Source: an uncultured Clostridia bacterium
Lineage (GTDB): Bacteria; Bacillota; Clostridia; Oscillospirales; Ruminococcaceae
Assembly: GCA_947625125.1 (NCBI GenBank)
Contig: CANQNF010000028.1
Coordinates: forward strand, 1-35,693
DNA: 35,693 bases
Reading direction: 5' to 3'
Below, in pieces: positions 10,468 to 26,531 of the stretch. The notes below the pieces were generated by a model that was not told the origin of the DNA, did not search any database, and saw only the letters and a program-made list of their open reading frames with translations. Position 1 is the first letter of the stretch. Every line of letters begins with the position of its first letter. Made by a program: the position numbers and the translations under genes.

Positions 10468-10579
10468 CATTTACTGTACAGTGAGAGAGAATAGTAAAAA
10501 GGTGAGGGTAGCAAGGCATGGGTAATTGTCGTGTATTTTCTTATTAAATATGTAAATTTGTATTCATGTAAAGAAAAAA

Positions 10580-10606
10580 TTACATGGATAATCGAAAAAA
10601 TTACAT
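10580..10606 (+). promoter_or_regulatory. Tandem LytTR/AgrA-type binding repeat upstream of the RiPP operon
   Basis: TTACAT at 10580 recurs exactly 21 bp later at 10601, about two helical turns, with TCG in the middle of the spacer. A -10-like TATGAT starts at 10629, 28 bp after the second repeat start. The same layout occurs at 23244 and 23786 inside the agr locus. A LytTR regulator is encoded at 21224. The repeats are seen; regulation by that protein is inferred. Confidence 0.75.
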
Positions 10607-10628
10607 GCAAAAGGCAAATAAGGAAATA

Positions 10629-10637
10629 TATGATAAT
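10629..10637 (+). promoter_or_regulatory. Likely -10 element of the RiPP operon promoter
   Basis: TATGATAAT lies about 50 bp ahead of the peptidase ATG, with no good -35 box. This suits a promoter that needs an activator bound at the upstream TTACAT repeats. A very similar GGAAATATGATAA sequence is found at 23289-23301. Confidence 0.55.
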
Positions 10638-10684
10638 GTCTTATTTATAAGAATTAATAATAAAATTAATGATAGGTTGTAAAA

Positions 10685-11767
10685 ATGTATCAATTTATAG
10701 ATGACAAAAATTATAAACATTTGATAGCCATTATTGTTGGTGGCTCAGAAAACGAAAAAAATATACATGGACTAGCTCATGTAGGAGAGCATATGCTTTT
10801 ACTTCCTTGTTTTGAGGAAGATGACAAAGATGAAAGTTATAGTACATTTGGATACACGTGTATAGACCATATATTTTTGTATTTTACAGCTAAAAAGGAG
10901 AGTACCCTTGAAATTGTTAAAAATAAAATAGAAGATAAAAGCATAATAAGAGCAGACAGGCTTGAAATAGCTAAGCATCAGGTTATATGTGAATGTGAAA
11001 AGCTAAAAGACAAAATTGCATCCAATGAAGAAAAAGTAAGATTTATTACTAATAATAGAATAACAAATTTTGCTGCAGGGAATGTGGAAGATATCAAAAC
11101 AATTACAGAACAGAATATAGGTGAGTGGTTGGATGGCATCATAAATGAAAAAAGGATGTTCTTTTTCTCGCTGGAAGAGTATTCTTATGCCGCTTTGCAA
11201 AATGTATGTGTAAAGCGCAACCTTAACCAATGTATATCCAAGCAACAGGAAACGGTTCAATCGTTATATATGAATAGGCAAAAGAAGAATAGCTATAAAG
11301 TCGAGATTTACGTTCCTTTATCTTTGATTTGTGAAAAGGAGAAATATTTTTGGCAGCTTTTAGATGAATATTATATCAAAAATTATTTAAGTAAATTTAC
11401 GGAACAGATAGATGTGTCGGAAAAGTTTTTTTCGTATACGGAAAGATATCTGTTGATTAGCATAGAAAATGCTTTGCCAGATCTGATTCCGAAAATTGTC
11501 AGAGAATTAAGAAATAGCGCAGATTGGAGAAAAGATATATCCTATGAAAATGAGAAGGAGAAATTTTATTATCAGTTGATGAGGATACAAGATGATAGAG
11601 AGAGCAGTAATATGGACATTATTAATGCTGTTATCAAAGAATTGATCTTTAATATTCCTTTTATAGATATTGATAAAGATATTGATTTGTTGAAATCTGT
11701 AGGGAATTATTTGTCTGTGGAGATTCAGGAAAGTTTGAAGAAAAGTATTAAAGTTGTAATATCATAA
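10685..11767 (+). CDS. M16-family zinc peptidase, probable RiPP leader peptidase
   Basis: The 360-residue protein carries the inverted zinc motif HxxEH as HVGEH (H32, E35, H36) inside GLAHVGEHMLL, with a likely third ligand E103 in HQVICECEK. The distance is a little shorter than the usual 70-80 residues. The protein is shorter than most M16 peptidases (about 400-450). It has no signal peptide or membrane segment, so it should act in the cytoplasm. It is the first gene of a four-gene operon: 14 bp separate it from the ABC transporter gene, and radical SAM and precursor genes follow. M16 peptidases such as AlbE/AlbF serve subtilosin-type clusters, so removal of the precursor leader is the natural inference. 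The start ATG at 10685 has only a weak site (AGGTTG). Confidence 0.8.
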   Translation: MYQFIDDKNYKHLIAIIVGGSENEKNIHGLAHVGEHMLLLPCFEEDDKDESYSTFGYTCIDHIFLYFTAKKESTLEIVKNKIEDKSIIRADRLEIAKHQVICECEKLKDKIASNEEKVRFITNNRITNFAAGNVEDIKTITEQNIGEWLDGIINEKRMFFFSLEEYSYAALQNVCVKRNLNQCISKQQETVQSLYMNRQKKNSYKVEIYVPLSLICEKEKYFWQLLDEYYIKNYLSKFTEQIDVSEKFFSYTERYLLISIENALPDLIPKIVRELRNSADWRKDISYENEKEKFYYQLMRIQDDRESSNMDIINAVIKELIFNIPFIDIDKDIDLLKSVGNYLSVEIQESLKKSIKVVIS

Positions 11768-11781
11768 GCGGAGAAAAAGGA

Positions 11782-13596
11782 TTGAGTAAGAAAGAGATAA
11801 ATATAAGAGATTATGTCAAGCTATTCTTTTATGGAAATGGTCTTATGCTTAAAACTTCAAAAAGCAAGTATTTTGCTTTGTATATACTTAGCGTTTTGGG
11901 AGGCGTTGTTTCTCCGGTTAATGCCATTTTTTGGGAGAAATTACTAAATTGGTTTGTGGAAGCATTTGTAAATAGAAAAAATATTGGAAATATTGGATGG
12001 TATTATTTAATAATGCTGTCTGTCCTGCCTTTTTTAGGTTATATTTTCGATTTGCTTCTTGATTACATAAAACAGACTTTTAGCGATCAAATGAACCTTT
12101 TCATTACTGAACGGGTATTGACTAAAGCATTTAAATTATCAATGGAAAGATTTGATGAATCTTCCACATACAACGATTTGCAAATTGCAACGACACGCAC
12201 GACGCAGAATTGCATGGGGTTATTGGATGCTATTACGGAAATGATTTTTTATACGGTGCAAATCATTAGTTTTATTCTTATATTGGCGAATTTTAACTGG
12301 AAGATTATCGTTTTAGCCATAATAGGCGCTGTACCATCTTTATATGTGGCATTAAGGGTTAATAAGTATTGGTTTGATACATTGAATAATAGAATTGGAA
12401 AATTTAGGCATATCGATTATTTAAAGAGTTTGATTGTAAAAAATGAATATGTGAAAGAAACAAAGCTATATAATATGGGAAATAAAATACTGGGACATAT
12501 TAAGGAATCTTTTAACAAATTTATTTCCGAGGATAAAAAAGCGCGTAAGAGGATATTGGCAAGAAGGACATTCGCACGTGTTTTTGATGAAATATTGACG
12601 TTGATTATAAAAGTATGGATACTTTTGGAGTCCCTGAAAGATAAAAGTGCGGTCGGAGAAGTTGTTTTATTTTTTAATGCTAACGAAAGTTTGAAAGGTT
12701 CTTTAATAGTGCTTTTAAATGAGCTTGCTAAGTTGCATGAAAACGTTTTGTATTTACAAATATTGAAACGAGTAGATGATATGGAAGTTGAAGGCGATTC
12801 ACACAAGGAGAAGGTAAATTCATCGTTTCAGAGAATTGAGTTTAGAAATGTATCATTCTCGTATCCGGGACAAAACATGCAGGCACTTAAAAATATATCC
12901 TTTGTGTTTGAAAGAGGGAAAACATATTCGATTGTAGGATTTAATGGAGCTGGCAAAACCACATTGCTGAAATTGCTGCTTGGGTTATATGAACCGGAAA
13001 AGGGAGAAATATTAATAGATAGTGTGAATTTAAATCAGCTTAATATTGCGGAATATTATTCGCAAATTGGCGCTGTATTTCAAGATTTTATAAAATATCC
13101 GTTTTCAATAGAGGAAAACATTTCCACTGAGTTAGATGGATTAAATGCGGGGGACGTTTTTGAAGCTATCAAATTCGCACATTTGGAAGATATGGTTAAG
13201 AAAATGCCTAATGGAATAAAAACAGTTCTGATGCGGGAGTGGAATAATGGAATGGACATTTCACAGGGGCAGTGGCAAAAAATAGCTATAGCAAGGTGCT
13301 ATTACAGAAAACCAACCATTATGATTTTGGATGAGCCGTTTTCTTCGGTAGATGTTGAATCTGAAAATAGTATTGTTGGCAATATAAAGCAGAAAAGTGA
13401 TAAACAGCTAAACATATTTATAACTCATCATTTCTCAAGCATATCGATGGCAGATGAAGTTATTGTCATGGATGATGGGAGGATAATAGAACAGGGAACA
13501 CATAATAAATTAATTGAAAAAAAAGGACGATACTTTCAGTTATATTCCGAACAATTACAAAATCTTAATAAAATGAATAAATATACAGGAGGGTGA
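11782..13596 (+). CDS. ABC exporter (fused membrane and ATPase domains), probable RiPP export
   Basis: The protein is 604 residues from a TTG at 11782, chosen because GGAG sits 8 bp ahead; the next ATG is 20 codons inside. About six hydrophobic segments lie between residues 25 and 310. The ATPase domain has Walker A GFNGAGKT (about 386-393), a signature region DISQGQW (about 492-498, SQGQ instead of LSGGQ) and Walker B IMILDEP (about 513-519), followed by a His-loop THH. There is no N-terminal C39 peptidase domain, which fits a separate leader peptidase from the gene just upstream. The next gene starts 4 bp after the stop. The most likely cargo is the modified peptide, perhaps also giving self-immunity; substrate is inferred from context. 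Confidence 0.88.
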   Translation: MSKKEINIRDYVKLFFYGNGLMLKTSKSKYFALYILSVLGGVVSPVNAIFWEKLLNWFVEAFVNRKNIGNIGWYYLIMLSVLPFLGYIFDLLLDYIKQTFSDQMNLFITERVLTKAFKLSMERFDESSTYNDLQIATTRTTQNCMGLLDAITEMIFYTVQIISFILILANFNWKIIVLAIIGAVPSLYVALRVNKYWFDTLNNRIGKFRHIDYLKSLIVKNEYVKETKLYNMGNKILGHIKESFNKFISEDKKARKRILARRTFARVFDEILTLIIKVWILLESLKDKSAVGEVVLFFNANESLKGSLIVLLNELAKLHENVLYLQILKRVDDMEVEGDSHKEKVNSSFQRIEFRNVSFSYPGQNMQALKNISFVFERGKTYSIVGFNGAGKTTLLKLLLGLYEPEKGEILIDSVNLNQLNIAEYYSQIGAVFQDFIKYPFSIEENISTELDGLNAGDVFEAIKFAHLEDMVKKMPNGIKTVLMREWNNGMDISQGQWQKIAIARCYYRKPTIMILDEPFSSVDVESENSIVGNIKQKSDKQLNIFITHHFSSISMADEVIVMDDGRIIEQGTHNKLIEKKGRYFQLYSEQLQNLNKMNKYTGG

Positions 13597-13600
13597 TGAA

Positions 13601-15103
13601 ATGAAACAGAGAACATGGGAAAATATTTTGAAACTAAAGGAAACAGGGGAAATTGTGAGAATGGGAATACCTTTTTCAACATCCTGTAAAAATTATTTTT
13701 ATGATGCTGGAACAGGCAAAGTGGTGGAATTGAACGTTGATGAAAAAGAAATTATTGATTCTCTTTTTGATGCGACTATAAGTATTGAACGGGCTAGTGA
13801 AATAATCAGTAAATTGGATTATAGCAAACAGTTTCTAAAGAGTATTATTTCTGAAAATTTATTTGCAAGTCCTATTTTAAAAAAATTTATTCCACTTGAA
13901 TATAAATATCAAGAGGAAAATATGGAAATACAACAATTAATTATTGAACTAACAGGCAGATGTAATTTGCGTTGTAAATATTGTATCTATAATGATTACT
14001 ATGAAGGTAATAGAAACTTTAATACGGAAGACATAACATTTGAAACAGCGAAAAAAGCTATTGATTATGTATATCAACATAGAAGTCCAGAACGGTTGGC
14101 AATAACTTTTTATGGCGGAGAACCATTATTGAATTTTGATGTAATGAAACAATGTATTGATTATTCGTTGGAAAATCTCAAGAATTGTAATGATTTGAGT
14201 TTTTCATTTACTACAAATTTAACACTTATGACGGAAGAGATTGCAGACTATTTAGGAAAAATACCAAACTTAAGTATTGTGCTTAGTTTAGATGGACCGG
14301 CGGAAATACAAAATAGTGCAAGAGTATATAGTAATAATAAGTCTACATTTGATGATGCATATAGAGGATTGAAATATATTTCGGAAGCGGCAAAAAAGTA
14401 TGGAAAACTTCAATTTATTTTCAACTCTGTTTTAATGCCCCCATATTCAGAAGAAAAATATAATCAAATCAATGAATTTTTCTCTGGATTAGATTTTTTG
14501 CCTGAAAATACAAGTGTTAGAACATCTTATCCATGTAAGGGATCACTCCCCCAAAGTTATTATACGCAGGATGATCCAATAACAATTTTCGAATGGGCAA
14601 CTAGCAAATATTTGAAACCGGGGTTTTCAAATAATAAGCAAAATATATATTCTGTATTAATGGAAACGGCTTTAGTTAAAATACATAATAGGCAGATATA
14701 TGATGAGCCTATAAATTGCAGCTTTTATAATGGATGTTGTGTTCCGGGGCAAAGGAGACTATATGTGTGTACAAATGGTTTATATAAAGTTTGTGAACGC
14801 GTGGGGAATACTCCATATATCGGACATGTTGACCAAGGAATAAATATAGAAACATTAAAAGAGTATTATTTAAAGCAATATGAACAGAAATCAATTAAAT
14901 ACTGCTCAAACTGTTGGGCTTTTCGCTTATGCGATTTATGTTATGCAGATTGTTATGATGAGAATGGGCTAAACATAGAAACAAAATTAACATATTGTGA
15001 TGGTATAAAAGATAGATATAAAAAATGGTTGATACTATATCATTCAGCTTTAGAAAATGAGCCAAAGATAATAGAAGAGATTGATAAACTAGAGATAACT
15101 TAA
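13601..15103 (+). CDS. Radical SAM/SPASM peptide-modifying enzyme
   Basis: The 500-residue protein starts at an ATG with AGGAGG 6 bp ahead. The SAM-binding iron-sulfur motif CxxxCxxC is C121, C125, C128 in TGRCNLRCKYC, followed by YGGEP. The C-terminal Cys-rich SPASM region starts near C373 and includes CCVPG, VCTNG and CSNCWAFRLCDLC, which can hold two auxiliary clusters. The N-terminal 110 residues look like a peptide-recognition (RRE-like) region. SPASM enzymes in RiPP pathways commonly join Cys sulfur to backbone carbons (sactipeptides, ranthipeptides). The target is presumably the six-cysteine peptide encoded next. The bond type and which cysteines are used cannot be decided from sequence. 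Confidence 0.9.
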   Translation: MKQRTWENILKLKETGEIVRMGIPFSTSCKNYFYDAGTGKVVELNVDEKEIIDSLFDATISIERASEIISKLDYSKQFLKSIISENLFASPILKKFIPLEYKYQEENMEIQQLIIELTGRCNLRCKYCIYNDYYEGNRNFNTEDITFETAKKAIDYVYQHRSPERLAITFYGGEPLLNFDVMKQCIDYSLENLKNCNDLSFSFTTNLTLMTEEIADYLGKIPNLSIVLSLDGPAEIQNSARVYSNNKSTFDDAYRGLKYISEAAKKYGKLQFIFNSVLMPPYSEEKYNQINEFFSGLDFLPENTSVRTSYPCKGSLPQSYYTQDDPITIFEWATSKYLKPGFSNNKQNIYSVLMETALVKIHNRQIYDEPINCSFYNGCCVPGQRRLYVCTNGLYKVCERVGNTPYIGHVDQGINIETLKEYYLKQYEQKSIKYCSNCWAFRLCDLCYADCYDENGLNIETKLTYCDGIKDRYKKWLILYHSALENEPKIIEEIDKLEIT

Positions 15104-15144
15104 ATATAAGTAAGCAACCACATTATATGAAAGGAGGAACTCAT

Positions 15145-15342
15145 ATGAAAGTTGTAAATCCCTTAAACAAGACACCATTAACATATGAAACAATGGTAAA
15201 TAGCTGCCATTGCGTTTGTACAAGTCTCAGCGGTGTATCGCATGTGGGCGGCACTGTACCGATTGGCGGAAATTGTGGGTGCAGTTGTGGAAATGGTTCT
15301 GTTAACCAGAACGGAAATAACAATCAGGCCTCCGACGCATGA
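15145..15342 (+). CDS. Cys-rich RiPP precursor peptide
   Basis: The 65-residue peptide starts at the ATG at 15145, 7 bp after AAAGGAGGAA; an upstream in-frame ATG at 15127 overlaps this site. The leader-like start MKVVNPLNKTPLTYETM is followed by two matching CxCxC clusters, CHCVC and CGCSC, separated by a Gly/Ser/Val stretch with two GG pairs. A Gly/Asn/Gln-rich tail ending in DA has no cysteine. The start resembles Cys-rich clostridial bacteriocin-type precursors I recall beginning MKVINP, a memory-level match. The gene is last in the operon, 41 bp after the radical SAM gene, with a terminator 160 bp further on. Export as an antimicrobial or signal is inferred; the cleavage site is unknown. 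Confidence 0.82.
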   Translation: MKVVNPLNKTPLTYETMVNSCHCVCTSLSGVSHVGGTVPIGGNCGCSCGNGSVNQNGNNNQASDA

Positions 15343-15668: not shown

Positions 15669-16184
15669 ATGGATGATGATGAATTAATAGAACAGATAAA
15701 ACAGGGGAATGAAAAAGCGGCAGAAGAATTAATCTTGCGGTATTATCCGGCTATTTTGCGCTTCTGTAAATGGAATTGCAAAAATCCGCAGAAAGCGGAA
15801 GATATAACGCAGGAAACATTTTTTAAGTTTATTAAAAATCTGCCTGTGTATCGCTCTAAAAAGAAATTTCGAACATATTTGTACACGATTGCAAAACATT
15901 TATGTATTGATGAGAATAGAAAGCCCATCTGCTGTTCTTTGGAAAATGACAAAAGTCTACCTGATGCGTGCAATGATATGCGTCAGATCGAGGATCGGGA
16001 AGATGTCAAGGCGCTATTACAATTGTTATCTGAAAAACAACGAGAAGCTGTTATATTGCGGTTTGGTGAACAGTTAAGCTATCGGGAAATGGAAATAATA
16101 ACAGGCTGCAATATGAGGACATTGCAAAGCAGAGTGAAAAAGGCATTGGAAATTATGAGAAAGGAGAGCCGTTATGAAAGGTAA
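15669..16184 (+). CDS. ECF-type RNA polymerase sigma factor
   Basis: The 171-residue protein has a sigma region 2 (about 8-75: AAEELILRYYPAI, AEDITQETFFKF) and a region 4 helix-turn-helix (about 110-165: LSEKQREAVILRF, SYREMEIITG, RTLQSRVKKAL). The start ATG at 15669 has only a weak site (GAAAG). It overlaps the next gene by 11 bp, a membrane protein that could serve as its anti-sigma factor. ECF factors usually direct transcription of their own operon, which here continues with an ABC transporter and a D,D-carboxypeptidase, so a response to cell-envelope stress is a fair inference. The 120 bp upstream are very A+T-rich and I cannot name a promoter with confidence. Confidence 0.88.
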   Translation: MDDDELIEQIKQGNEKAAEELILRYYPAILRFCKWNCKNPQKAEDITQETFFKFIKNLPVYRSKKKFRTYLYTIAKHLCIDENRKPICCSLENDKSLPDACNDMRQIEDREDVKALLQLLSEKQREAVILRFGEQLSYREMEIITGCNMRTLQSRVKKALEIMRKESRYER

Positions 16185-16932
16185 AAAGTTCCAGAAATAC
16201 TTGACTCAGGTGTTGAGCCAAACAGAAGAAGCAGAGAAACTGGAGGAAACAATAAAGACATTTAAATTAATTATGAAAATGCAGACATATCATGTTGAAA
16301 CAAGAACGGGTTTTTTTACATTCCTGTCTGAAATCCTGCATTTTGAGGGCTTAAAGATATTCGGACTGCAAACATTGGTACTGCTTTTTACCTGTCTTGG
16401 AATTTTAAGCGTTTCAGACATGTCTGAATATATACCGGCCTTTATGCCGCTGTTTGCATTAGCCGTTATTCCGGCATTATTTCAGAATAAGACATATATG
16501 ATGGAAGAGATAGAAGCCGTCACGAGGTCTTCAACCGCACAGATCATCTTAGCAAAGTTGATACTTTTGAGTGCAGCCAATCTGGTTTCGTTTACGATAT
16601 TGGCAGTATTAGAAAAATATTCAGGAAATTCTTCTGTAAGTATGATCGTTTTTATCCTATATGCGGCGGTTCCTTTTTTATCATGTATGGTCATGATGTT
16701 ACGCTGTATACGCCTGCAAAAAAAAGACATGGCATTGCCGTGTATGTTTATGTCCCTGTTTTTCTGTCTCTGCTGGGGCGCTTCTGCGTTTGCTTTTCCG
16801 TGGCTGTACAGGATGTCAGCAACCGGAATCTGGATTATTGCATTTATTGTTTTTGGAAGTTTTTATGTAAAAGAAATCTATTACATTATAAAAGCAGCAA
16901 AGGAAGGGAGAAACTATGGAATTATTAATTGA
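16174..16932 (+). CDS. Multi-pass membrane protein, possible anti-sigma factor or transporter subunit
   Basis: This is a 252-residue protein with a charged cytoplasmic N-terminus of about 60 residues (QTEEAEKLEETIKTFK) and about six hydrophobic segments (roughly 65-85, 88-105, 125-145, 155-172, 185-205, 215-232). AAGGAG precedes the ATG at 16174. It overlaps the sigma gene upstream by 11 bp and the ABC ATPase gene downstream by 17 bp, so it is translationally coupled to both. No catalytic motif is visible. Sigma binding through the N-terminal part is an inference from gene order; a second ABC permease subunit is the alternative. Confidence 0.65.
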   Translation: MKGKKFQKYLTQVLSQTEEAEKLEETIKTFKLIMKMQTYHVETRTGFFTFLSEILHFEGLKIFGLQTLVLLFTCLGILSVSDMSEYIPAFMPLFALAVIPALFQNKTYMMEEIEAVTRSSTAQIILAKLILLSAANLVSFTILAVLEKYSGNSSVSMIVFILYAAVPFLSCMVMMLRCIRLQKKDMALPCMFMSLFFCLCWGASAFAFPWLYRMSATGIWIIAFIVFGSFYVKEIYYIIKAAKEGRNYGIIN

Positions 16933-17791
16933 CCGATTGACAAAACAGTATGGAAGCAAAATCGCAGTAGACTGCGTGAATGCAAAATTTACTCCGGGAG
17001 TTTATGGGCTGTTGGGAGCAAACGGTGCTGGAAAGACGACATTGATGCGGATGCTCTGTGCTATTTTGGAGGCAACTTCTGGAGAAGTTATGCTGGATGG
17101 GAACAATATCATAGAGATGGGGGGTGACTATCGAAATCTGCTGGGATATCTGCCGCAAAATTTTGGGTATTATCCCAATTATACAACAAGAGAATTTTTG
17201 CTGTATATTGCAACACTAAAAGGGATTCCCAAAAAGATTGCCAGACAGCGGACTGAAGAAATGCTTGAAAATGTCGGATTGAGCGATGTGGCTTCAAAAA
17301 AAATTCGGACATTCTCAGGGGGGATGAAACAGCGGATTGGAATTGCGCAAGCCATGCTTAATCACCCCCAGATCTTAATACTGGATGAACCGACAGCAGG
17401 ACTGGATCCTAAGGAGCGGGTACGTTTGCGCAATATTCTGTCTGAATATGCAAATGATAAAATCATTATCCTTTCCACGCATATTGTATCGGATATCGAA
17501 GCAATTGCGGATCAGGTTTTGATTATGAAAAATGGAAATTTTATACAATGCGGCACCGTTTCGGAACTGACAGACAAAGCAAAGGGAAAGGTCTGGGAAC
17601 TTCGCGTATCGCAAAGTGATGCAGGAAGATGGCTGGCAACAGCCAATGTTGCCAGCTATCGGCATGAGAAAGCTGATATTATACTGCGTATCGTTTCAGA
17701 AAACAAACCATCAGAAGCTGCTGTTTTGTGTGAGGCTTCTTTAGAAGATATTTACTTATACTATTTTCCAACAAAGGAAGGAGAGGAATAA
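16916..17791 (+). CDS. ABC transporter ATP-binding protein (BcrA-like)
   Basis: The 291-residue protein has Walker A GANGAGKTT (about 36-44), Q-loop YLPQNFG, signature FSGGMKQR, Walker B ILILDEPTAG and His-loop STH. The last 70 residues extend beyond the core ATPase, as in exporters of the BcrA/NatA type. It has GGGAG ahead of the ATG. The permease gene starts 4 bp after its stop. With the permease and carboxypeptidase it suggests export of, or protection from, cell-wall-active peptides. The transported substrate is unknown. Confidence 0.9.
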   Translation: MELLIDRLTKQYGSKIAVDCVNAKFTPGVYGLLGANGAGKTTLMRMLCAILEATSGEVMLDGNNIIEMGGDYRNLLGYLPQNFGYYPNYTTREFLLYIATLKGIPKKIARQRTEEMLENVGLSDVASKKIRTFSGGMKQRIGIAQAMLNHPQILILDEPTAGLDPKERVRLRNILSEYANDKIIILSTHIVSDIEAIADQVLIMKNGNFIQCGTVSELTDKAKGKVWELRVSQSDAGRWLATANVASYRHEKADIILRIVSENKPSEAAVLCEASLEDIYLYYFPTKEGEE

Positions 17792-17794
17792 ACA

Positions 17795-18997
17795 ATGGAA
17801 TTATTTCTTGCAGAACATAAAAAAATGTGGAAAAAAAGAAGTACCAGGATCTGCGCCTTATTGTGCTTTGCGTATATCTTTATTGCAGTCAACATTCTTT
17901 CTTTTCAGTGGATCTCTTTTGGCAGCTATAAAGATGGATTCGGGAATCATTTTGACGGTTACTCTCAGATTAGAAACAAGCAGGCATATGGAGAAAAATG
18001 GAAAGGGGAATTGACAGATCAAGTATTACAGCAAATGATAAAAGATTATCAGCGGATGTTAAAAAATGAGGAAATGGATAGTGTATGGGCTGCAGATTGG
18101 AGTAATATAAATAACTGGCTCAGGACACTGTACCCCGAATTGATGGCGAAAAATTCTTACGAACTAATGATAGATTACATCGATCCATATCAGATTACAG
18201 GGTTTTATGAGAGACGGCAGGAGAAAATTGGGGAATTTTTAGATAATAATGGACAAACCGGAGATGAGAAGGCATTTTTGCTGCAAATGAACAGCAAGGT
18301 AAAGATACCCTTTTCTTATGAATGGTCAGAAGGATGGAATTTCATTCTTTGTGCGGTAATCCCTAATACAGAGACTGTAATAGAGATTTTCATAGCAATT
18401 GTATTATCAACCATATTTGCAGGAGAATGGCATGACAATACAAGCACGTTTATCTTAACGACTAAAAAGGGATGGCGTGAATTGGCATACGCAAAAATAT
18501 GGACGGGGATCTCGTTTGTTTTTGAAATGTTTCTGGTGCTTCTTTTAGGAAATATAGTGACACAGATATTCTTTTTGGGAACGCATGGATGGAATATGCC
18601 GGTACAGTTTATTAAAATGCTGGCAGTTGCACCTCTTAATATGCTGCAAACAGAAGTTTATCAGTATATTTATATTTTATTTGGTGCGATCGGATTTGCA
18701 GGGGAAATTATGTTGGTATCCTCCATAGTGAAAAACAATTTTATTTCAGTGCTTATTGGGATAGCATTGCTTTATTTGCCGTCTGTGATATCTGGCTATC
18801 TGCCAATGTGGGCGCAAAAAGGATTGGATCTATTACCTTTAGCAGGAGATTCACTGGATATTTTCAGGACAAATACCTTTCATATTTTTGGAAAATATGT
18901 GTGGTCGCCGTACTTGCTGATTGCTGTTCCAGTTCTGATCGGTGTCTTGTGTATGCCGTTTACAGTAAAGTGTTGGTCAAGGCGGTTGAGGGATTGA
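17795..18997 (+). CDS. ABC-2-type permease
   Basis: The 400-residue protein has one hydrophobic segment near residues 18-40, a large soluble loop of about 150 residues (QMIKDYQRML to EWSEGWNF), and then about five segments to the C-terminus. This layout is usual for ABC-2 permeases partnered with BcrA-like ATPases. AAGGAGAGGA precedes the ATG, and the next gene starts 6 bp after its stop. The large loop probably faces outside and may contact the peptide substrate. Function is inferred from the ATPase next to it. Confidence 0.8.
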   Translation: MELFLAEHKKMWKKRSTRICALLCFAYIFIAVNILSFQWISFGSYKDGFGNHFDGYSQIRNKQAYGEKWKGELTDQVLQQMIKDYQRMLKNEEMDSVWAADWSNINNWLRTLYPELMAKNSYELMIDYIDPYQITGFYERRQEKIGEFLDNNGQTGDEKAFLLQMNSKVKIPFSYEWSEGWNFILCAVIPNTETVIEIFIAIVLSTIFAGEWHDNTSTFILTTKKGWRELAYAKIWTGISFVFEMFLVLLLGNIVTQIFFLGTHGWNMPVQFIKMLAVAPLNMLQTEVYQYIYILFGAIGFAGEIMLVSSIVKNNFISVLIGIALLYLPSVISGYLPMWAQKGLDLLPLAGDSLDIFRTNTFHIFGKYVWSPYLLIAVPVLIGVLCMPFTVKCWSRRLRD

Positions 18998-19003
18998 TGG
19001 GAA

Positions 19004-19723
19004 ATGGAAAGAAAGAGAGACTCAGGGAAAAAGACTAGAAAAAAACACTGGAAAGTGATTCCGATTCTAATTTTAATATATTTTATATTTGGCAGTCTAA
19101 AAAACAGCGACTCTATATTTCCTTTCCTTTTAGAGCGAAACGGAGTCAATGATGATTCACATATCATTCCTGTTTCGGAAGAATGGAATTTGATTGTTGT
19201 GAATCATTGGAACGAAATACCGGAAGACTATAGCGTAACATTAACGGAATTATCAAACGGACAAAAAGTTGACAGCCGAATATATCCGTATCTGCAGGAG
19301 ATGTTTGATGCAATGAGGTCAGACGGAATATATCCGATTGTCCGTGAAGGGTATAGAACAGAGGAAGAACAGAAAGAAACATTTTACGAAAAAGTACAAG
19401 CTTATATGAGTGAGGGTTATTTCAGAACAAGTGCTGAAAGGATAGCAAAAGAGTGGGTAGCGTTGCCGGGAACAAGCGAGCATCAGCTCGGTATAGCGGT
19501 TGATATTAACGCTGACAAGACACAATCCGCTAATGAGGAAGTATATGCGTGGCTTGCCGAAAATGCATACAAATATGGTTTTATATTGCGTTATCCGCAA
19601 GGTAAGGAGGATATTACAGGAACAAGTTATGAACCGTGGCATTTTAGATATGTTGGTATAGAACATGCACAAGTAATATATGAAAATCGTTTTTGTTTAG
19701 AAGAATACTTGGAAAATGACTAA
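19004..19723 (+). CDS. VanY-like membrane-anchored D,D-carboxypeptidase
   Basis: The 239-residue protein has a positively charged N-terminus and one membrane anchor (about 17-33), so the catalytic part should lie outside the membrane. The zinc site motif SxHxxGxAxD is SEHQLGIAVD (H160, D167), followed by EPWHFRYVG (E210, H213), as in VanY/VanX and LAS-type peptidases. These enzymes trim the terminal D-Ala from peptidoglycan stem peptides. It is the last gene of the ECF sigma operon, 6 bp after the permease gene. No van ligase, VanS or VanR is nearby, so glycopeptide resistance is not implied by itself. Remodelling of precursors to evade a lipid II-binding agent is plausible. Confidence 0.85.
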   Translation: MERKRDSGKKTRKKHWKVIPILILIYFIFGSLKNSDSIFPFLLERNGVNDDSHIIPVSEEWNLIVVNHWNEIPEDYSVTLTELSNGQKVDSRIYPYLQEMFDAMRSDGIYPIVREGYRTEEEQKETFYEKVQAYMSEGYFRTSAERIAKEWVALPGTSEHQLGIAVDINADKTQSANEEVYAWLAENAYKYGFILRYPQGKEDITGTSYEPWHFRYVGIEHAQVIYENRFCLEEYLEND

Positions 19724-19779: not shown

Positions 19780-20160
19780 TTTAAGAGGTTGGTACTTCTT
19801 ATAATGCGGCAAAAGCAGCGCAGTATTTGATTAATAAGTTTGAATCCATTTCATATAGATGGCGCATTTGGTGCCGGCGCTGAAACAGCAACGAAAACAT
19901 TTCAGCAGAAGATGTGGATTGGCGTTACCGGTGTAGTAAATTCTCTTACATGGCAGTATTTGTTCGGATATGATGCATATCCTGGTGGTGGTAGTGTTGT
20001 TACAGGCAATGAATCAGATGGATATCCCAAAGCAATGCACAGAGATATGGATTTGCATAATAATGAAGTTGGGAGGTGCATAGGAGTCGATAACAAGCAA
20101 GTATCAGAAGATGATATAGCGGATATTATTTACAATGAAATTAGTTATTCATCAACATAA
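19780..20160 (+). pseudogene. Decayed cell-wall-associated protein fragment
   Basis: One frame around 19788-19850 reads GTSYNAAKAAQYLINKFE, resembling the start of secreted amidase-like domains. A different frame from about 19840 reads a peptidoglycan-binding-like GAFGAGAETATKTFQQKMW...GVTGVVNSLTWQYLFG and then MDLHNNEVGRCIGVDNKQVS. The two frames are not joined, and no ribosome binding site precedes either part. I read this as a frameshifted, truncated remnant of an exported protein with a PG_binding_1-type repeat. The fragment ends 28 bp before the inverted repeat of an IS remnant. Confidence 0.55.
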
Positions 20161-20773: not shown

Positions 20774-20859
20774 GTAATTGATTACTTCTATTGATAGTAT
20801 CACGACAATCAAATCAGGGTAATATAAATGTATGTTATGTTTATGAGGTAATCAATTAT
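20774..20859 (+). promoter_or_regulatory. Paired operator-like sites of the XRE gene
   Basis: GTAATTGATTAC (20774-20785) recurs in inverted form as GTAATCAATTA (20848-20858), the second copy overlapping the start codon of the XRE gene. Two copies of one sequence bracketing a repressor promoter are typical of autoregulation. Binding is inferred. Confidence 0.5.
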
Positions 20860-21222
20860 GAAAAGTCGTATCAAGGAATTACGTGAAAACAGAAGGTTAA
20901 TACAAGAGATTCTTGCATCAGAACTAAACATTACGCAGCAGTCGCTTAGTAAATATGAGAGAGATATCACCACAATTAAAATTGATATTCTTAAAAGGAT
21001 AGCGAAGTATTTACAACGGATTATCTGTTAGGCGTATCGGATGTAAAAAGAGATTTACAAGGACAGATGAAAATGAATAAAGATATAGATGAATATTATG
21101 ATTTGATAGAAGTCTATAAAGGATTGGATAAATATGATAAGGAAATTGTCTGGTCAATTTTGCAAACGATTAAGAAGACGCATGAAAAACGTAAAAATGA
21201 TATAAAGAAAAGAGATGATTGA
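20858..21222 (+). pseudogene. Frameshifted XRE-family repressor
   Basis: The ATG at 20858 follows GAGG and opens an XRE helix-turn-helix (MKSRIKELRENR, NITQQSLSKYERD) of about 55 residues, which stops at TAG near 21030. The expected continuation DYLLGVSDVKRDL, then about 50 more residues, is intact in another frame from about 21014 to the stop at 21220. Family members read KYF...TTDYLLGVSD at this point, so a short deletion near 21010 has removed a few codons and shifted the frame. The C-terminal part overlaps the start of the LytTR regulator gene. Loss of this repressor could leave the agr locus less tightly controlled; a sequencing error is the alternative. Confidence 0.7.
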
Positions 21223-21223
21223 A

Positions 21224-21952
21224 ATGCTGAACGTAGCAATTTGTGATGATGATATTCGGACTACAGGGGAACTGGAGATGCTGATACAGAAAATTGCAAA
21301 GCATAACTTTGTTGATGTAGAAATAGAAGTGTTCTGGGATGGGAAAAGTTTGGTAGAGGAAATTAGTAAAGGGTTTTGTTTTGATATTATTTATTTAGAT
21401 ATAGAAATGGACAATGAAGATGGTATTTCTGCGGCAAGAAAAATTCGGATATATGATAAAAATGTCCTGATAATATATGTTACAGGCCATGAAAACCATA
21501 TGAGAGAATCCTTTTCTGTACGCCCATTTCAATTCTTAGTAAAGCCAGTAAATGAACAGGAGATGGAGAACTGTTTCAAGGATGCTTATGAGGATGTGGG
21601 TGACAGGAATTTCTATTTCCAATATAGTTATCAGAGAGTAAATTATAAAGTGCCAATTCAGGACATTTTATATTTTCAAAGCAGTAAGCGTAAGATTTTG
21701 ATTGTAACAGAAAGGGAAAATCTCATTTTATATGGAAAATTGAATACTATAGAAGAAAGCCTAAAGATATGTAAAGTATCATTTTTGCGGGTTCATCAGT
21801 CATATCTTGTAAATTACAGACATATTGAGGGACAAACATATGATTTTGTTGTGATGGACAATGGAAAAAGAATTTCTATCAGTGAGGACAGAAGAAAAAT
21901 GATCAGTGAACAGTACTGTTCAATGGAGGATACTATCCGTGCTGATAGATAA
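21224..21952 (+). CDS. agrA: AgrA-like LytTR response regulator
   Basis: About 242 residues from the ATG at 21224 (MLNVAICDDD); an in-frame ATG at 21215 adds three residues, and neither has a strong site. The receiver domain has the acid cluster DDD, the phosphorylated Asp in IIYLDIEM, Thr in YVTGH and Lys in FLVKPV (D62, T90, K110 counted from 21215). The LytTR DNA-binding domain follows (about 135-235; DILYFQSSKRKI, FLRVHQSYLVNYRHI). LytTR proteins of the AgrA type bind direct repeats spaced about 21 bp; three such repeats exist in this window (10580, 23244, 23786). The gene overlaps the kinase gene downstream by 14 bp. Confidence 0.9.
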   Translation: MLNVAICDDDIRTTGELEMLIQKIAKHNFVDVEIEVFWDGKSLVEEISKGFCFDIIYLDIEMDNEDGISAARKIRIYDKNVLIIYVTGHENHMRESFSVRPFQFLVKPVNEQEMENCFKDAYEDVGDRNFYFQYSYQRVNYKVPIQDILYFQSSKRKILIVTERENLILYGKLNTIEESLKICKVSFLRVHQSYLVNYRHIEGQTYDFVVMDNGKRISISEDRRKMISEQYCSMEDTIRADR

Positions 21953-23243
21953 AGTATTTTCAGTTGGGATAAATATATTGCTTATAGGATTCGCAATCTA
22001 TTTGTTCCTGTCATATTTCTCAATATTTTTTGTGAGAAGGGGAAAGAAAATAGCGTTTGTGGTTGGGATTTCTATATTTGCCGTAACAGATATTTTCCTC
22101 TCACTGCCGCCATATTTAAATGTCGGACTTACAATTTTGGATACACTGGCTGCTGTCATATTGATATATGAAGGAAAGTTCTGGAAAAAATGTGTGTTTG
22201 TGATTGCATTTAGCGCAATCTGGATGATGATAGAAACTTTCAGTGGATATGTATTTTTGATTTATTTTGGGCAATTTGAGGCACTTCAAACCTTAGCAGG
22301 ATTAGGTTCCTTTGTTTCCAAATGCTTATTTCTATGTGTTATCATGGCATTAAAAAGAGTATTTACAGATGATGAAATCAGGGATTTGCCTGCCAGTTAC
22401 AGTATAATGCTGGTTTTGATTCCAATGGGCAGTATTTATATCATGAATAACATTTTCATGCTTTGCCATAGCGTGAACAGTAGACAGGCTAATTTCAGCT
22501 CGGCAGTTGTCGCAATCATTTTACTGGGAATAAACATATTGATATTTTACATATATATCAGGCTGGCGGATGAACTGCAGCTAAAACGTATGACTTCCAT
22601 CTATAAACAGCAGTTGGAATTGTGTGAGAGGCATCAGCAGGAGCGTGAAATGTCCATATTACAGATACGAGATGTAAAACATAATATGAAGAATAATCTT
22701 GTATCAATTCTTGCTTATGCAGAAAAAGGTGAGAATGATCGAATTATTGGATTTGTCAATGAAATAATGGACGATGGAGGACTGCGGATATCCGCAGTCA
22801 CAAACAGCGGCAATATTGTTATTGATTCATTGATTGGATATTGGTATGCAAGGGCGCAGCAGCTGGGAATAGAATTTTCCGCAGATATCCGCATTCCGAT
22901 GAAGATACCATTTAAGGGAGCGGACATGTGCCTGATACTTGGAAATCTTTTGGAGAATGCGGTGGAGGCATCACAAAATGCAGGTGACAGGAAGTACATA
23001 AGCATCAGAATGAAATATGACAGGAATAATCTTCTGATATTTGTAGAAAACAGTTATGGAGGTTGTTTGAAAAAAACAAGAAATAAGGGATTAAGCACTA
23101 CAAAAGCTGATACACAAAATCATGGTGTCGGTTTGCCATCAGTTTATCGGGCTGTGGCAAAATATCATGGGACGGTGAGCATTGAGGACACCATGCTAGG
23201 TAAGTTTTTGATTAGGATCGTGTTATATGGAGAACAGGAATAA
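21939..23243 (+). CDS. agrC: AgrC-like GHKL sensor histidine kinase
   Basis: I choose the GTG at 21939 because GGAGG (21925-21929) is 9 bp ahead, giving 434 residues; a GTG at 21906 has no site. About six or seven membrane segments fill residues 5-200, the usual peptide sensor of AgrC-type kinases. A coiled dimerisation helix leads to the phosphorylated His in RDVKHNMKNN (H248). The GHKL ATPase follows with N-box LGNLLENAVEAS and a G-box GVGLPSVYRAV. It overlaps the LytTR regulator gene, and together with AgrD/AgrB downstream forms a full quorum-sensing circuit. Its ligand is inferred to be the peptide from 23873. Confidence 0.9.
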   Translation: MLIDKVFSVGINILLIGFAIYLFLSYFSIFFVRRGKKIAFVVGISIFAVTDIFLSLPPYLNVGLTILDTLAAVILIYEGKFWKKCVFVIAFSAIWMMIETFSGYVFLIYFGQFEALQTLAGLGSFVSKCLFLCVIMALKRVFTDDEIRDLPASYSIMLVLIPMGSIYIMNNIFMLCHSVNSRQANFSSAVVAIILLGINILIFYIYIRLADELQLKRMTSIYKQQLELCERHQQEREMSILQIRDVKHNMKNNLVSILAYAEKGENDRIIGFVNEIMDDGGLRISAVTNSGNIVIDSLIGYWYARAQQLGIEFSADIRIPMKIPFKGADMCLILGNLLENAVEASQNAGDRKYISIRMKYDRNNLLIFVENSYGGCLKKTRNKGLSTTKADTQNHGVGLPSVYRAVAKYHGTVSIEDTMLGKFLIRIVLYGEQE

Positions 23244-23298
23244 TTACATGAATGCTCGATATTATAACATAAGAAATGATTTGTATGGGAAATATGAT
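23244..23298 (+). promoter_or_regulatory. LytTR-type repeat and promoter ahead of the receiver gene
   Basis: TTACAT (23244) and TAACAT (23265) are 21 bp apart with CTCGAT in the spacer. A -10-like TATGAT starts at 23293, exactly 28 bp after the second repeat start, the same distance as in the RiPP operon promoter. It lies just after the kinase stop, so the genes from 23346 on probably form a separate autoinduced unit. Confidence 0.72.
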
Positions 23299-23345
23299 AA
23301 AATGAAAAGATAAGTTTTTACAGTAAGGTATTTGGGTGGCAATAA

Positions 23346-23735
23346 ATGAATAGGATATTATTGATTAGTGATAATGAAGATGTATTTCGTATTACGCAGG
23401 ATGTAACACAGGAAAAACACAAGCTTATTTGGTGTAAATATAATTATGAGGAAAACAAGCAATATCCAGATGCGGACATTGTTATTATGTATTTTGATAC
23501 AAATATGCTGCAGCAGGAAACCTCCGAAGTAGTTATCAAGGCGAAAGCAAGAATGAGGCATTCCATGCCAATTCTTGCACTTGTAGAGAAAGGAACGCCG
23601 CAGGATATATTTCTGATATTGGAAGCAGGGGCATATGATTATATGAAAATAACTGATAATAAACAGAACTATGAGAAAAAAATAGAGGAACTTATCTTGT
23701 GGGACTGGTACTTAAAAAAATATATATCCAAATAG
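23346..23735 (+). CDS. Stand-alone receiver-like protein
   Basis: The 129-residue protein has the beta-alpha pattern of a response-regulator receiver: LLISDNED at the start, an Asp at the end of the third strand (D51 in IVIMYFDTN), and LEAGAYDYMKI near the end (K101). The usual Thr/Ser is replaced within PILALVEKG, and the Lys is not followed by Pro, so phosphorylation is uncertain. It has no output domain. GGGTGG precedes the ATG at 23346. Lying between agrC and agrD under an AgrA-type repeat, it may modulate the kinase or regulator; that is inference. I do not know this as a standard agr component. Confidence 0.7.
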   Translation: MNRILLISDNEDVFRITQDVTQEKHKLIWCKYNYEENKQYPDADIVIMYFDTNMLQQETSEVVIKAKARMRHSMPILALVEKGTPQDIFLILEAGAYDYMKITDNKQNYEKKIEELILWDWYLKKYISK

Positions 23736-23785: not shown

Positions 23786-23843
23786 TTACATGAACACTCG
23801 ATTTTATTACATAAAGAAAAAAATGATAGATTGTTGTAGTAAT
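23786..23843 (+). promoter_or_regulatory. LytTR-type repeat and promoter ahead of agrD
   Basis: TTACAT occurs at 23786 and again at 23807 (21-bp period) with CTCGAT in the spacer, as in the site at 23244. A -10-like TAGTAAT begins at 23837, 30 bp after the second repeat start. This is the expected autoinduction site of agrDB. Confidence 0.75.
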
Positions 23844-23872
23844 ATGGAAAGAAAAGAAAGGAGTTTTAAGTT

Positions 23873-24025
23873 ATGAATGCTGAAAAAGTAAGAAAACAGG
23901 CAGCAAAAGGTTTGGCGGACATATCTCTGAAACTGGGTAGAATATCCGCTGATAGTGTCTGCTGCTACATTTTTCATCAGCCCAAAATGCCGGAAGAACT
24001 GAAAAAAATGAAAAGGGGTAAATGA
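23873..24025 (+). CDS. agrD: AgrD-like cyclic autoinducer peptide precursor
   Basis: This 50-residue peptide (MNAEKVRKQAAKGL start) has AAAGGAG ahead of its ATG at 23873. An amphipathic N-terminal helix leads to ADSVCCYIF and then the conserved tail HQPKMPEELKK, the type seen in clostridial AgrD proteins. By comparison with such peptides the thiolactone ring would be CCYIF (C30 to F34), released after AgrB cuts before HQP; a ring from C31 is the alternative. The stop overlaps the AgrB start (ATGA), so the two are translated together. The tandem cysteines are unusual, because most AgrD peptides have one. Confidence 0.88.
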   Translation: MNAEKVRKQAAKGLADISLKLGRISADSVCCYIFHQPKMPEELKKMKRGK

Positions 24026-24615
24026 TGAAGCAGTTGTCGGAAAAACTAACGCAATTTGTTATTGATTCCGGTGTAATCTCTAAGGAATCATATGCGGTAT
24101 ACCAATATGGATTTCAGATTGGGCTTGAAATGTTGAGCTGTTTAATGGCCTGTTCAGTCATAGCAGTATATTTGCGTATGATTCCTGAATTTATTGCACT
24201 AACAGTTTTTTTTATGCTGTTACGGAGCTTTGCTGGCGGTGTGCATTTAAACAGTTTTTGGAAATGCTTTATATGTTCGGTTACAGTGCAGACTTTGGTG
24301 TTGGTTCTTAATGATTTGCATAGGTTTTCCATAAGGAATGCATGGGGAATTATCATATTAAGCAGCATATTGATTTTCAAGTTGGCGCCAGTACAAAGTA
24401 TAAACAGGGAACTTGATAATGATGAAAAGGAACATGGTAAAAGTGCTGTTATGAGAATCCTGAGCGTACTCCTGCTTTTTTCAGGATGCTGTACACTCAT
24501 TAGTAACAATAAAATGGTTTCGTTGATGGCTTTTATTGTTCTGACAATTTTAATTTCTCAATGTGTAGGGGTAGTAAAGTACAAGATTGAGAAGGATATA
24601 AGTGGGCGGAAATGA
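24022..24615 (+). CDS. agrB: AgrB-like autoinducer-processing peptidase
   Basis: The 197-residue membrane protein has about five or six hydrophobic segments. The active site is H75 and C82 in RSFAGGVHLNSFWKC, the same seven-residue spacing as the His/Cys pair of staphylococcal AgrB. AgrB cuts the AgrD tail and forms the thiolactone ring at the membrane. The start is ATG at 24022 (or 24025) with AAAAGGGG ahead, overlapping agrD by 4 bp. A hairpin with a T-rich tail overlaps its stop. Confidence 0.92.
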   Translation: MMKQLSEKLTQFVIDSGVISKESYAVYQYGFQIGLEMLSCLMACSVIAVYLRMIPEFIALTVFFMLLRSFAGGVHLNSFWKCFICSVTVQTLVLVLNDLHRFSIRNAWGIIILSSILIFKLAPVQSINRELDNDEKEHGKSAVMRILSVLLLFSGCCTLISNNKMVSLMAFIVLTILISQCVGVVKYKIEKDISGRK

Positions 24616-24840: not shown

Positions 24841-26241
24841 TTAGAGAGAGTTTGAAGTATTCTCTATTTTTTTGTCAGAGTTTTTTACTTGAGGAGAACG
24901 CCCAAGGTACTGGTTTAAGTTGTCCAGCTTCCGGCTGAAGGCTTTAATTTCCTTCTCCGCAGATTTGTATGTGCCCTGCAGGGTTTCTTTTTTGGAATAC
25001 AGCGCATCGTAGTCGCTGCGGAGCTTGTCAAGGTCAAGATTTTTCAGGTCAATGCCCATGCGCCTTAACATATTTTCTGCACCATCGTGGAGCAGAAGCT
25101 CCGTTTCGTGGCGGCGCAGGTAAGCGTCACGGTCTTTGGACTTCTGGTAACGGACATGAAAAATACGGTTTGCCTTGTACTGTTCGGCATACTTTATAAT
25201 CTCGCCTAAATCCTTTAGTTGATGCTCGGTTTCCACAAGGCTGCTCCGTGCGGTTTTTGCAGCGGAGGACTTTACGGCAATCTGCTGTTCAAGCTCTGCA
25301 ATGGAGCCAGCCTGACTATAGCCTGCAGCGGCAATCTTCAGATTTTCAATGTCTGCCCAATGCTTCAGACCGGAGCTGTTTTGGAACTTTTCTTCCGAGG
25401 TGTCGATGAGCGACCGGGCAGAATAATCCTTTATGACAGGTTTTCTTCGTTTTGGGAACGGAGTGCGTTTTGCGGGCTGCTCAAGAACTCTGTTTTCAAT
25501 CCGTTCCCTGATGTGTTCTTTGGTATATTCAGTGCCGAGGGACTTGGTGCTGCCACGCACAAAGCGTTCCCTGTTCGGCGGACGGAAGGAGATGTATTTT
25601 AACGATCCTTCTCCGAAGGCTTCGCCCTTGATTTCGTAGCCTTTTGCCCGAATCAGCTCAAGGAAAACCTCAAAGGAACCAGCGGCTTTGACGGCATCGT
25701 CGATGTCGGCTTTGAGCCTGCTTTTCCAAGACGAACTATTTTTGTCGGCTGACCATTCCTTGTATTTCCTGCCACGCTGTCCGGATGGGGAAATGACGGA
25801 AAGATTATGCTCCCTGCACAGCTCGTCATTCAGCCTGCGGATATGGTAATAGCTCTTTCTGCAGTCATGGTATTTCTCATAGCTGATGTTGTCCGCAGCG
25901 CAGAAAATGATGTGGTTGTGGACGTGCCCACGGTCAATGTGCGTGGACACAATGTAGGAGTATTTTCCTTCCAGAAGCCTGTCAGCCAGTTCTGTGCCGA
26001 TTCGGTGGGCTTCTTTATAAGAAACCTCGCCGGGGAGAAAAGACTGTATTAGGTGATAGGCTTTGTTTGGATCGGACTGGCTCGTTTTTGACAGCGCAAA
26101 CTTGAAGTCATAAGCGGCAGTTTCGGGGCTGCACCCATAGGAAGAAATCAGTATTCCCTCGTCGGTTTTGTCAGGGCTGCAGATGTAGTCTACTGCTTTA
26201 TTGACGGTTGCCGTGATAGCATGGATTTTTGTGTATGCCAT
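24841..26241 (-). CDS. MOBP-type relaxase
   Basis: The 466-residue protein has the relaxase metal site HxDxxHxHxH as THIDRGHVHNHIIF (H101, H106, H108, H110), and a likely catalytic Tyr19 in KAVDYICSP, as in the relaxases of Tn1549-like and other Firmicutes elements. The C-terminal third is a long coiled coil. It nicks oriT and pilots the DNA strand into the recipient. The start at 26241 has AGAAGG close ahead and lies 52 bp inside the mobC gene, so they are coupled. The operon is transcribed toward the cargo, opposite to the rest of the ICE. The G+C content is clearly higher than in the neighbouring agr locus. Confidence 0.93.
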   Translation of the reverse strand: MAYTKIHAITATVNKAVDYICSPDKTDEGILISSYGCSPETAAYDFKFALSKTSQSDPNKAYHLIQSFLPGEVSYKEAHRIGTELADRLLEGKYSYIVSTHIDRGHVHNHIIFCAADNISYEKYHDCRKSYYHIRRLNDELCREHNLSVISPSGQRGRKYKEWSADKNSSSWKSRLKADIDDAVKAAGSFEVFLELIRAKGYEIKGEAFGEGSLKYISFRPPNRERFVRGSTKSLGTEYTKEHIRERIENRVLEQPAKRTPFPKRRKPVIKDYSARSLIDTSEEKFQNSSGLKHWADIENLKIAAAGYSQAGSIAELEQQIAVKSSAAKTARSSLVETEHQLKDLGEIIKYAEQYKANRIFHVRYQKSKDRDAYLRRHETELLLHDGAENMLRRMGIDLKNLDLDKLRSDYDALYSKKETLQGTYKSAEKEIKAFSRKLDNLNQYLGRSPQVKNSDKKIENTSNSL

Positions 26242-26531
26242 ACCTTCTGCATCAGCTCCTTTACTTCTTTTACGTCGGCTTGATATACGTTGCCTGTGGC
26301 ATTCATGCGCTTTGCGATCTGGTTTAAGTTGTTCCCGATTTTGGCAAGCGCAGCGTTATATTCCCGCAGCTCTGAATAGTCAATGTCATAGACATAACCG
26401 TAAATGATCAGATGCCGCAGGAAAGAGGATTTGTCTTTCATATTGGAGGCTTTGAATTTCTGCTCCAGTATGTAAAGCTCATCATCGCTCAGACGTAATG
26501 TTAAGCGGTTTTGGCGTTCTCTGTTCTCCAT
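26190..26531 (-). CDS. mobC: MobC-like relaxosome accessory protein
   Basis: The 113-residue protein starts with a ribbon-helix-helix-like part (RLTLRLSDDELYILEQK) and continues with the MobC pattern (SSFLRHLIIYG, ALAKIGNNLNQIAKRMNATG). AAAGGAG precedes the ATG at 26531. MobC proteins bind oriT next to the nick and help the relaxase open the strands. It overlaps the relaxase gene and faces the hairpin-rich non-coding region to its right. Confidence 0.9.
   Translation of the reverse strand: MENRERQNRLTLRLSDDELYILEQKFKASNMKDKSSFLRHLIIYGYVYDIDYSELREYNAALAKIGNNLNQIAKRMNATGNVYQADVKEVKELMQKVWHTQKSMLSRQPSIKQ

Follow-up and report, generated by a model that had tools for sequence, protein, structure and literature searches.

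A candidate LytTR operator common to an Agr-type locus and RiPP operons of clostridia

In the window, that is, the whole analysed stretch of 35,693 nucleotides, an agr-type locus and an operon for a radical SAM-modified RiPP are preceded by the same paired TTACAT repeat, and these repeats are most probably the operators of the response regulator encoded at 21215-21952, through which the cyclic peptide of the Agr system would turn on both the agr locus and the RiPP operon. What the sequence itself shows is the operator repeat with its constant spacing, the regulator gene that accompanies it and the RiPP genes that follow it. The proposal of a preliminary description of this DNA, namely that a cyclic-peptide quorum signal switches on a radical SAM RiPP operon more than 10 kb away, is supported computationally by a held-out model (R1), by relatives of the locus and by the spacing of the -10 element.

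Operator repeats and the genes that follow them

The three operators of the window and their -10 elements are as follows.

10580-10606, plus strand: operator of the RiPP operon, TTACAT-N15-TTACAT with a TCGA core (pattern counts and held-out R1 match)
10634-10639, plus strand: -10 hexamer TAATGT with a preceding TGA, at +33 relative to the start of repeat 2
23244-23270, plus strand: operator 5' of the receiver-like gene (repeat pattern; R1 training set)
23298-23303, plus strand: -10 hexamer TAAAAT with a preceding TGA, at +33 relative to the start of repeat 2
23786-23812, plus strand: operator 5' of agrD (repeat pattern; R1 training set)
23840-23845, plus strand: -10 hexamer TAATAT with a preceding TAG, at +33 relative to the start of repeat 2

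Exact reading of the sequence bears out the 21-bp period described earlier for all three sites; the TTACAT pair is exact at 10580 and 23786, and the second copy at 23244 is TAACAT (one mismatch). The central TCG, likewise described before, is common to the three sites, where the core reads TCGA within a frame of 18 fixed letters, TTACATGNANNNTCGANNNNATNACAT, to which the three sites fit by construction, the frame having been derived from them. With at most one mismatch, this frame was found in 2 of 396 family genomes, namely the window's own genome (the three window sites) and G136, and the backwards control gave 0; the G136 match (L025, one mismatch) adjoins a tRNA-Cys gene and was taken as chance. 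As for the -10-like element, which had been placed 28, 28 and 30 bp after the start of the second repeat, TATGAT does stand at +28 at two of the sites, but the element common to all three lies at +33.

The hexamer pair read loosely is by itself only mildly unusual: with up to two mismatches, 12 pairs occur in the window versus a shuffle mean of 5.29 (12 being reached in 1 of 100 shuffles), and with up to one mismatch the own genome holds 24 versus 11 in the backwards control. Loose hexamer matching proved too noisy as a sole criterion, and a trained model was used in its place. Among the 24 loose places of the own genome, a central TCG together with a -10 element at precisely +33 is confined to the three of the window. 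More TTACAT-like half-sites lie on the minus strand at 10550-10576, just 5' of the RiPP operator; a half-site TTATAT at 23223, within the coding end of the kinase gene, was not counted, its counterpart being listed for L037 and L038 but not for L034, L036, L039 or L040.

The RiPP operon downstream of the first operator comprises four genes.

10685-11767, plus strand: opening gene of the operon, product of 360 aa (HVGEH, by eye, as HxxEH-like motif)
11782-13596, plus strand: ABC exporter (PF00005, 105 bits)
13601-15103, plus strand: radical SAM peptide maturase (PF04055, 72.5 bits)
15127-15342, plus strand: Cys-rich RiPP precursor of the CA_C0660 family (NF035954, 62.7 bits, cut-off 60)

With 62.7 bits, the precursor clears the curated threshold of 60 bits for the putative sactipeptides of the CA_C0660 family, and its true start may be an internal ATG at 15145, behind an AGGAGG-like stretch. 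The maturase reaches 475 bits against the RumMC equivalog NF035951, whose cut-off is 720, and is thus a relative rather than a member of that family. For the 360-aa protein, searches of Pfam, NCBIfam and PDB gave no meaningful match; its HVGEH motif suggests an M16-type peptidase. Between the RiPP operon and the agr locus, at 15669-19723, there are genes for an ECF sigma factor, an ABC transporter and a VanY-type carboxypeptidase, which could serve as self-protection against a cell-wall-active product.

The agr locus contains AgrB, AgrD and, adjoining agrBD, a GHKL kinase with a LytTR regulator, which together make up the gene set of an Agr system.

21215-21952, plus strand: AgrA-like response regulator, receiver and LytTR domains (PF00072, PF04397)
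21906-23243, plus strand: AgrC-like GHKL histidine kinase (PF14501, 78.1 bits)
23346-23735, plus strand: 129-aa stand-alone receiver-like protein (weak matches to response-regulator models)
23873-24025, plus strand: AgrD, cyclic autoinducer precursor (TIGR04223, 49.7 bits, cut-off 19; PF05931, 25.8 bits, cut-off 22.7)
24022-24615, plus strand: AgrB, AgrD processing and export (PF04647, 118.7 bits, cut-off 23)

The receiver-like protein is encoded between kinase and AgrD behind an operator of its own, a position that relatives retain, is 48-90% identical to its counterparts in five relatives, and is possibly a modulator of the regulator. Two further genes upstream appear incomplete: a Cro-like HTH gene at about 20858-21030 reads as broken, its counterpart being intact 5' of the regulator in L034 and L035, and a partial DUF6973 gene lies at 19840-20160, the front of which matches a peptidoglycan-binding domain.

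Relatives of the locus and a model trained on agr sites

When the regulator was used as the query, one relative was retrieved among viral contigs (L034, 73% identity), and genome contigs yielded six close relatives (L035-L040, 72-93%) and seven distant ones (L041-L047, 25-45%); Faecalimonas umbilicata DSM 103426 and Sporofaciens musculi WCA-9-b2, among the close relatives, are two named strains with this system. Sites precede both the receiver-like gene and agrD in L034, L036, L037, L039 and L040, the contig of L038 stops after the receiver-like gene, and in L035 an IS200-type transposase gene lies 3' of the regulator, with the receiver-like gene, agrD, agrB and both sites on another contig. 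At the distant loci L041-L047, seven weak matches were found, and none joins both hexamers (up to one mismatch) with the TCGA core.

R1 is a sequence-only model built from 14 agr-locus sites, with zero RiPP sites in its training, and it spans the -10 region; it was run on 12 assemblies, 8 of which hold this agr locus, with up to 150 prefiltered candidates scored per genome. In this matrix scan of the element and its relatives, which the preliminary description had proposed, the agr-only model recovers the RiPP promoter of the window at 23.8 bits, third in the 3.17-Mb own genome, where the next best reported place has 13.4 bits. At E<0.01, the 12 assemblies gave 24 places, 17 at agr loci and 7 at RiPP operons and nothing else. 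The 17 agr places are the 14 training sites, two copies in G401 and one held-out site in G400, where the agrD behind it is decayed. Held out, too, is every one of the 7 RiPP places, which comprise three radical SAM operons, three class II lanthipeptide operons and one decayed cluster.

Window, radical SAM operon: 23.8 bits
G396, operon with a RumMC-like maturase: 27.5 bits
G398, dual radical SAM operon: 29.1 bits
G397, class II lanthipeptide operon: 32.7 bits
G396, class II lanthipeptide operon: 22.5 bits
G402, class II lanthipeptide operon: 22.3 bits
G400, decayed cluster (Cys-rich peptide and exporter fragment, by eye): 21.1 bits

The sites of G396, G401 and G402 are near-identical and therefore not independent; the LanM proteins of G396 and G402 are alike at 1025 of 1049 residues. 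In the lanthipeptide operons, LanM scores 805 and 854 bits (cut-off 304) and LanA is of the plantaricin-C type, and for the dual radical SAM genes of G398, whose operon also holds an M16/PreP-like protease and an exporter, the nearest models are SCIFF/PapB, with scores below their cut-offs. The 25th place of R1 is the promoter of a lachnocin operon (17.6 bits, E 0.021) with a maturase of 800 bits (cut-off 550) and three small precursor-like genes; lachnocin sites receive weak scores, 14.7 and 15.7 bits. The lowest E in G403-G406, four assemblies in which the regulator that was fetched has 38-45% identity, was 0.029. Lachnocin-type operons lie directly 5' of agr at L035:3267-8765 and L037:5159-8800, each with an exporter, three small precursor-like genes, a maturase and a subtilase-like protein.

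Judged by gene content, these operons have in common modified-peptide synthesis behind the operator. The operons behind the operator are not orthologous: the maturases of the window and L034 are 33% identical (exporters 27%), and the RiPP classes differ. That relatives might conserve the genes without the repeats, raised earlier as a possible refutation, was not borne out; the different RiPP operons of relatives carry the operator together with the -10 spacing.

Operator-like repeats with the same -10 spacing were additionally seen 5' of a secreted DUF6973 gene upstream of agr (L034:8736, L036:4218, L039:2135, L040:4014), for which R1 gives about 9 bits at three sites, the fourth not being listed; 5' of the DUF6973 gene part of the window (19840-20160), no operator was found. 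At L134 and L135 (G431 and G725) there are two tandem agr copies, each with its operator, the receiver-like gene being in one copy and agrD with agrB in the other.

Spacing of the -10 element and specificity of the pattern

A TANNNT hexamer begins at +32 to +34, counted from where repeat 2 starts, at 30 of 30 sites before agr loci, RiPP operons and the secreted DUF6973 gene (+33 at 25 sites, +32 at four, +34 at one), versus 0 of 15 other pattern places with a locus, away from agr, RiPP and DUF6973 genes. The background for a -10 element at these three offsets is 7.4%, by which about one would be expected among the 15 other places, the contrast being with the 30 of 30. The rule was fixed after the sites had been inspected, and some rows are near-identical (L034/L039/L040; L083/L086), so that the independent sites are fewer than 30. 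At four of the 35 loci, the scoring took a stronger site nearby, and the sites of these loci themselves are in a separate list; of 13 two-mismatch pattern places that had no locus, that list covers four, and nine were left out. The L091 place, which has no -10 element, was taken as chance; in a pattern scan of viral contigs, which returned four stretches, L130-L132, inspected by eye, lacked a correctly placed -10 element, and the remaining stretch is the L034 contig.

The pattern alone is a poor guide if read loosely. A 16-letter repeat pattern with up to two mismatches has 43 places in 10 whole genomes and also 43 in the backwards control, and hence carries no signal by itself. Restriction to one mismatch or none leaves 12 of the 43: 11 at agr loci or RiPP operons (one being the decayed cluster of G400) and one (G404) elsewhere. 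The evidence accordingly rests on close matches with up to one mismatch, on the -10 element and on gene context. The explanation by chance, whereby AT-rich intergenic DNA yields such repeats often, can point to loose pairs that are only mildly in excess and to a two-mismatch pattern that equals its control; however, it is unlikely already by sequence statistics and is opposed by the frame found in two of 396 genomes, by the held-out result of R1, by the three-site combination of TCG and -10, and by 30 of 30 against 0 of 15, which leaves it a negligible probability. The earlier concern that the pattern might be as common in unrelated intergenic DNA did not materialise.

Family-wide scans with R1 scored 12 prefiltered candidates per genome, and the scan of the F. 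umbilicata family was restricted to E<=0.001 under stricter filters. There, 6 of 397 genomes matched, namely F. umbilicata, G431, G725, G510, G537 and G657. An agr locus is present in G431, G725 and G510, with regulators 61-69% identical, and in G537 a 49-aa piece beside the site resembles the end of the regulator by eye, Pfam giving no match for it. The G657 site (L138:9481; 25.6 bits, correct -10) lies 5' of carboxylase and NRPS/PKS genes. The closest regulator of that genome has 31% identity, and the site would be either a false positive or an orphan target.

In 396 genomes of the window's own family, 4 matched. Besides the own genome, these are three with scores of 20.8-22.0 bits, in which the site is situated before a Tex gene, in coding DNA and directly before an AgrB gene (G058), respectively. 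Given such matches elsewhere, the weakest RiPP sites (21-24 bits) persuade mainly by position and -10 element, and a single R1 match of 21-24 bits proves nothing when taken alone. Around ten relatives of the radical SAM protein (28-41% identity) from nine family genomes, for each of which 4.2-4.5 kb were fetched, a span outside which operon starts may fall, R1 gave one weak match, of 12.6 bits, and nothing higher. The G058 site (L178:277-330), from another genus of the same family, has a spacing of 19 bp, not 21 bp.

The LytTR gene at the agr locus, described earlier as the sole one visible, is the only one in the window, but the whole genome has 8, and a genuine operator before the RiPP operon could be bound by another LytTR regulator of the host, in which case the RiPP would answer a different signal; G657, with a site and no close regulator, also fits such a reading. 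This alternative is given a low probability. Elsewhere in the own genome, R1 reaches at most 13.4 bits, and this fourth-best place is on contig C30, which carries none of the seven further LytTR genes; those genes thus show no such site of their own. The operator is, moreover, kept beside the kinase gene of the regulator at the agr loci of seven relatives (L034, L036, L037, L038, L039, L040 and L087), which favours the regulator of the agr locus.

Proposed mechanism, known systems and the mobile element

In the proposed mechanism, AgrB would convert AgrD to a cyclic peptide, and on accumulation of this predicted mature signal the GHKL kinase would phosphorylate the LytTR regulator. A regulator dimer would then bind the two half-sites, which lie 21 bp (two helical turns) apart and would be placed for RNA polymerase to use the -10 element at +33. 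The regulator would thereby turn on agrDB and the receiver-like gene, a positive feedback, and the same protein would raise expression of the radical SAM RiPP operon about 11 kb away; in relatives, the same regulator family would drive other cassettes, namely lanthipeptide, dual radical SAM and probably lachnocin. Activation rather than repression is likewise a prediction, as is an antimicrobial activity of the products.

Agr promoters usually operate under positive feedback, and the presence of the same geometry at the agr promoters of the window therefore counts against a regulator that binds the RiPP site and represses or tunes the operon, as does the position of the repeats, which end 5' of the -10 element without covering it. 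Such repression is considered unlikely, albeit with a precedent in PlnD, which according to passages of PMC2714321 represses from the repeats of PlnC.

A wider reading than activation of the two loci of the window is put forward tentatively, at somewhat less than an even chance: a portable "plug-in" regulon, in which a single family of Agr loci, from Lachnospiraceae and their relatives and here on a mobile element, would use one operator as a socket. Any RiPP cassette (CA_C0660/RumMC-like, plantaricin-C-like lanthipeptide, dual radical SAM or lachnocin) could then be fired by the same kind of cyclic signal, along with the secreted DUF6973 protein, while the receiver protein would tune the response.

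Agr signalling is already known, as are LytTR repeats and the quorum control of bacteriocins. In the pln system of Lactobacillus plantarum, the signal is not known to be an AgrB/AgrD cyclic peptide and the targets are unmodified two-peptide bacteriocins; in Staphylococcus aureus, the half-site of AgrA differs and the targets are RNAIII and virulence; the Rgg/SHP control of tryglysin is not of the two-component LytTR kind. The earlier statement that LytTR regulators bind direct repeats of 21-bp period agrees with PlnC and PlnD, LytTR regulators that bind 9-bp repeats with a 12-bp spacer just 5' of the promoter (passages of PMC2714321), and the paired half-sites of the window, with their 21-bp period and their position 5' of candidate promoters, have the layout of a LytTR direct-repeat regulon. 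The PlnABCD/pln regulon is similar in the 21-bp period of its paired repeats and in their position 5' of the pln operons, its own included (same passages of PMC2714321), whereas the putative targets here belong to the radical SAM and lanthionine RiPPs and TTACAT around a TCGA core takes the place of TACGTTAAT. Similarly, the S. aureus AgrA, a LytTR regulator, binds as a dimer to direct repeats upstream of P2/P3, promoters with suboptimal spacing (as excerpted from PMC4227749).

The clostridial precedent is Clostridium acetobutylicum, in which an Agr cyclic-peptide system controls the adjacent lanthipeptide-synthetase-like (LanM-like) gene CA_C0082, as followed by a reporter in agrA and agrB mutants; genes of this type are described in the same excerpts as lacking catalytic residues and other lanthipeptide genes (PMC10301443), and the term "direct repeat" is absent from the PMC10301443 text. 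Here, by comparison with CA_C0082, the operator stands before complete RiPP operons belonging to several classes, not all of which adjoin the agr locus. In Staphylococcus epidermidis, agr affects the lantibiotic epidermin, by the title of Kies 2003 (in the reference list of PMC11178275) through precursor processing, not through a shared operator. Quorum sensing also regulates a radical SAM RiPP in streptococcal tryglysin (PMC8092268), where control, by the title of PMC13361665, runs via Rgg/SHP; a paper on gut sactipeptides mentions a response regulator, agr and LytTR being absent from its text (PMC13239113). In the open-licence literature, outside which most subscription journals fall, no Agr operator common to several RiPP classes appeared among the matches listed. 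Beyond the window, the finding extends to a family of Agr loci with an operator that also stands 5' of unrelated RiPP cassettes.

If the proposed mechanism is true, one small cyclic peptide would time several chemically unrelated modified peptides in these clostridia, silent RiPP clusters could be woken by adding the peptide, and the operator with its -10 spacing would become a sequence rule for predicting responsive clusters. The way in which mobile elements join a peptide cassette to its density switch would also become testable. The presence of the repeat before several unrelated modified-peptide clusters of relatives suggests that crowding switches such clusters on.

The RiPP operon and the agr locus are likely to reside on the same mobile element, as the window also contains relaxase, MobC and Tn916-type integrase genes; integrase and relaxase are among the marks of an integrative conjugative or mobilisable element.

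24841-26531, minus strand: relaxase and MobC/NikA-like genes (PF03432, PF21983, PF05713)
28621-29856, plus strand: Tn916-type tyrosine integrase (PF00589, PF02920)

With all three sites on one element, the RiPP site might be a copy of an agr promoter from a recent duplication, devoid of regulatory meaning. This is judged very improbable: the stretch from operator to -10 element in the RiPP promoter differs from that of the agr promoters, and diverged, non-orthologous RiPP operons elsewhere keep both features, repeats as well as spacing, although drift would be expected to remove them. A query of viral contigs with the radical SAM protein returned no relative; among plasmids, the best radical SAM relative is 36.1% identical (among 20 of 173 matches listed), and one AgrB-like record stands at 30%.
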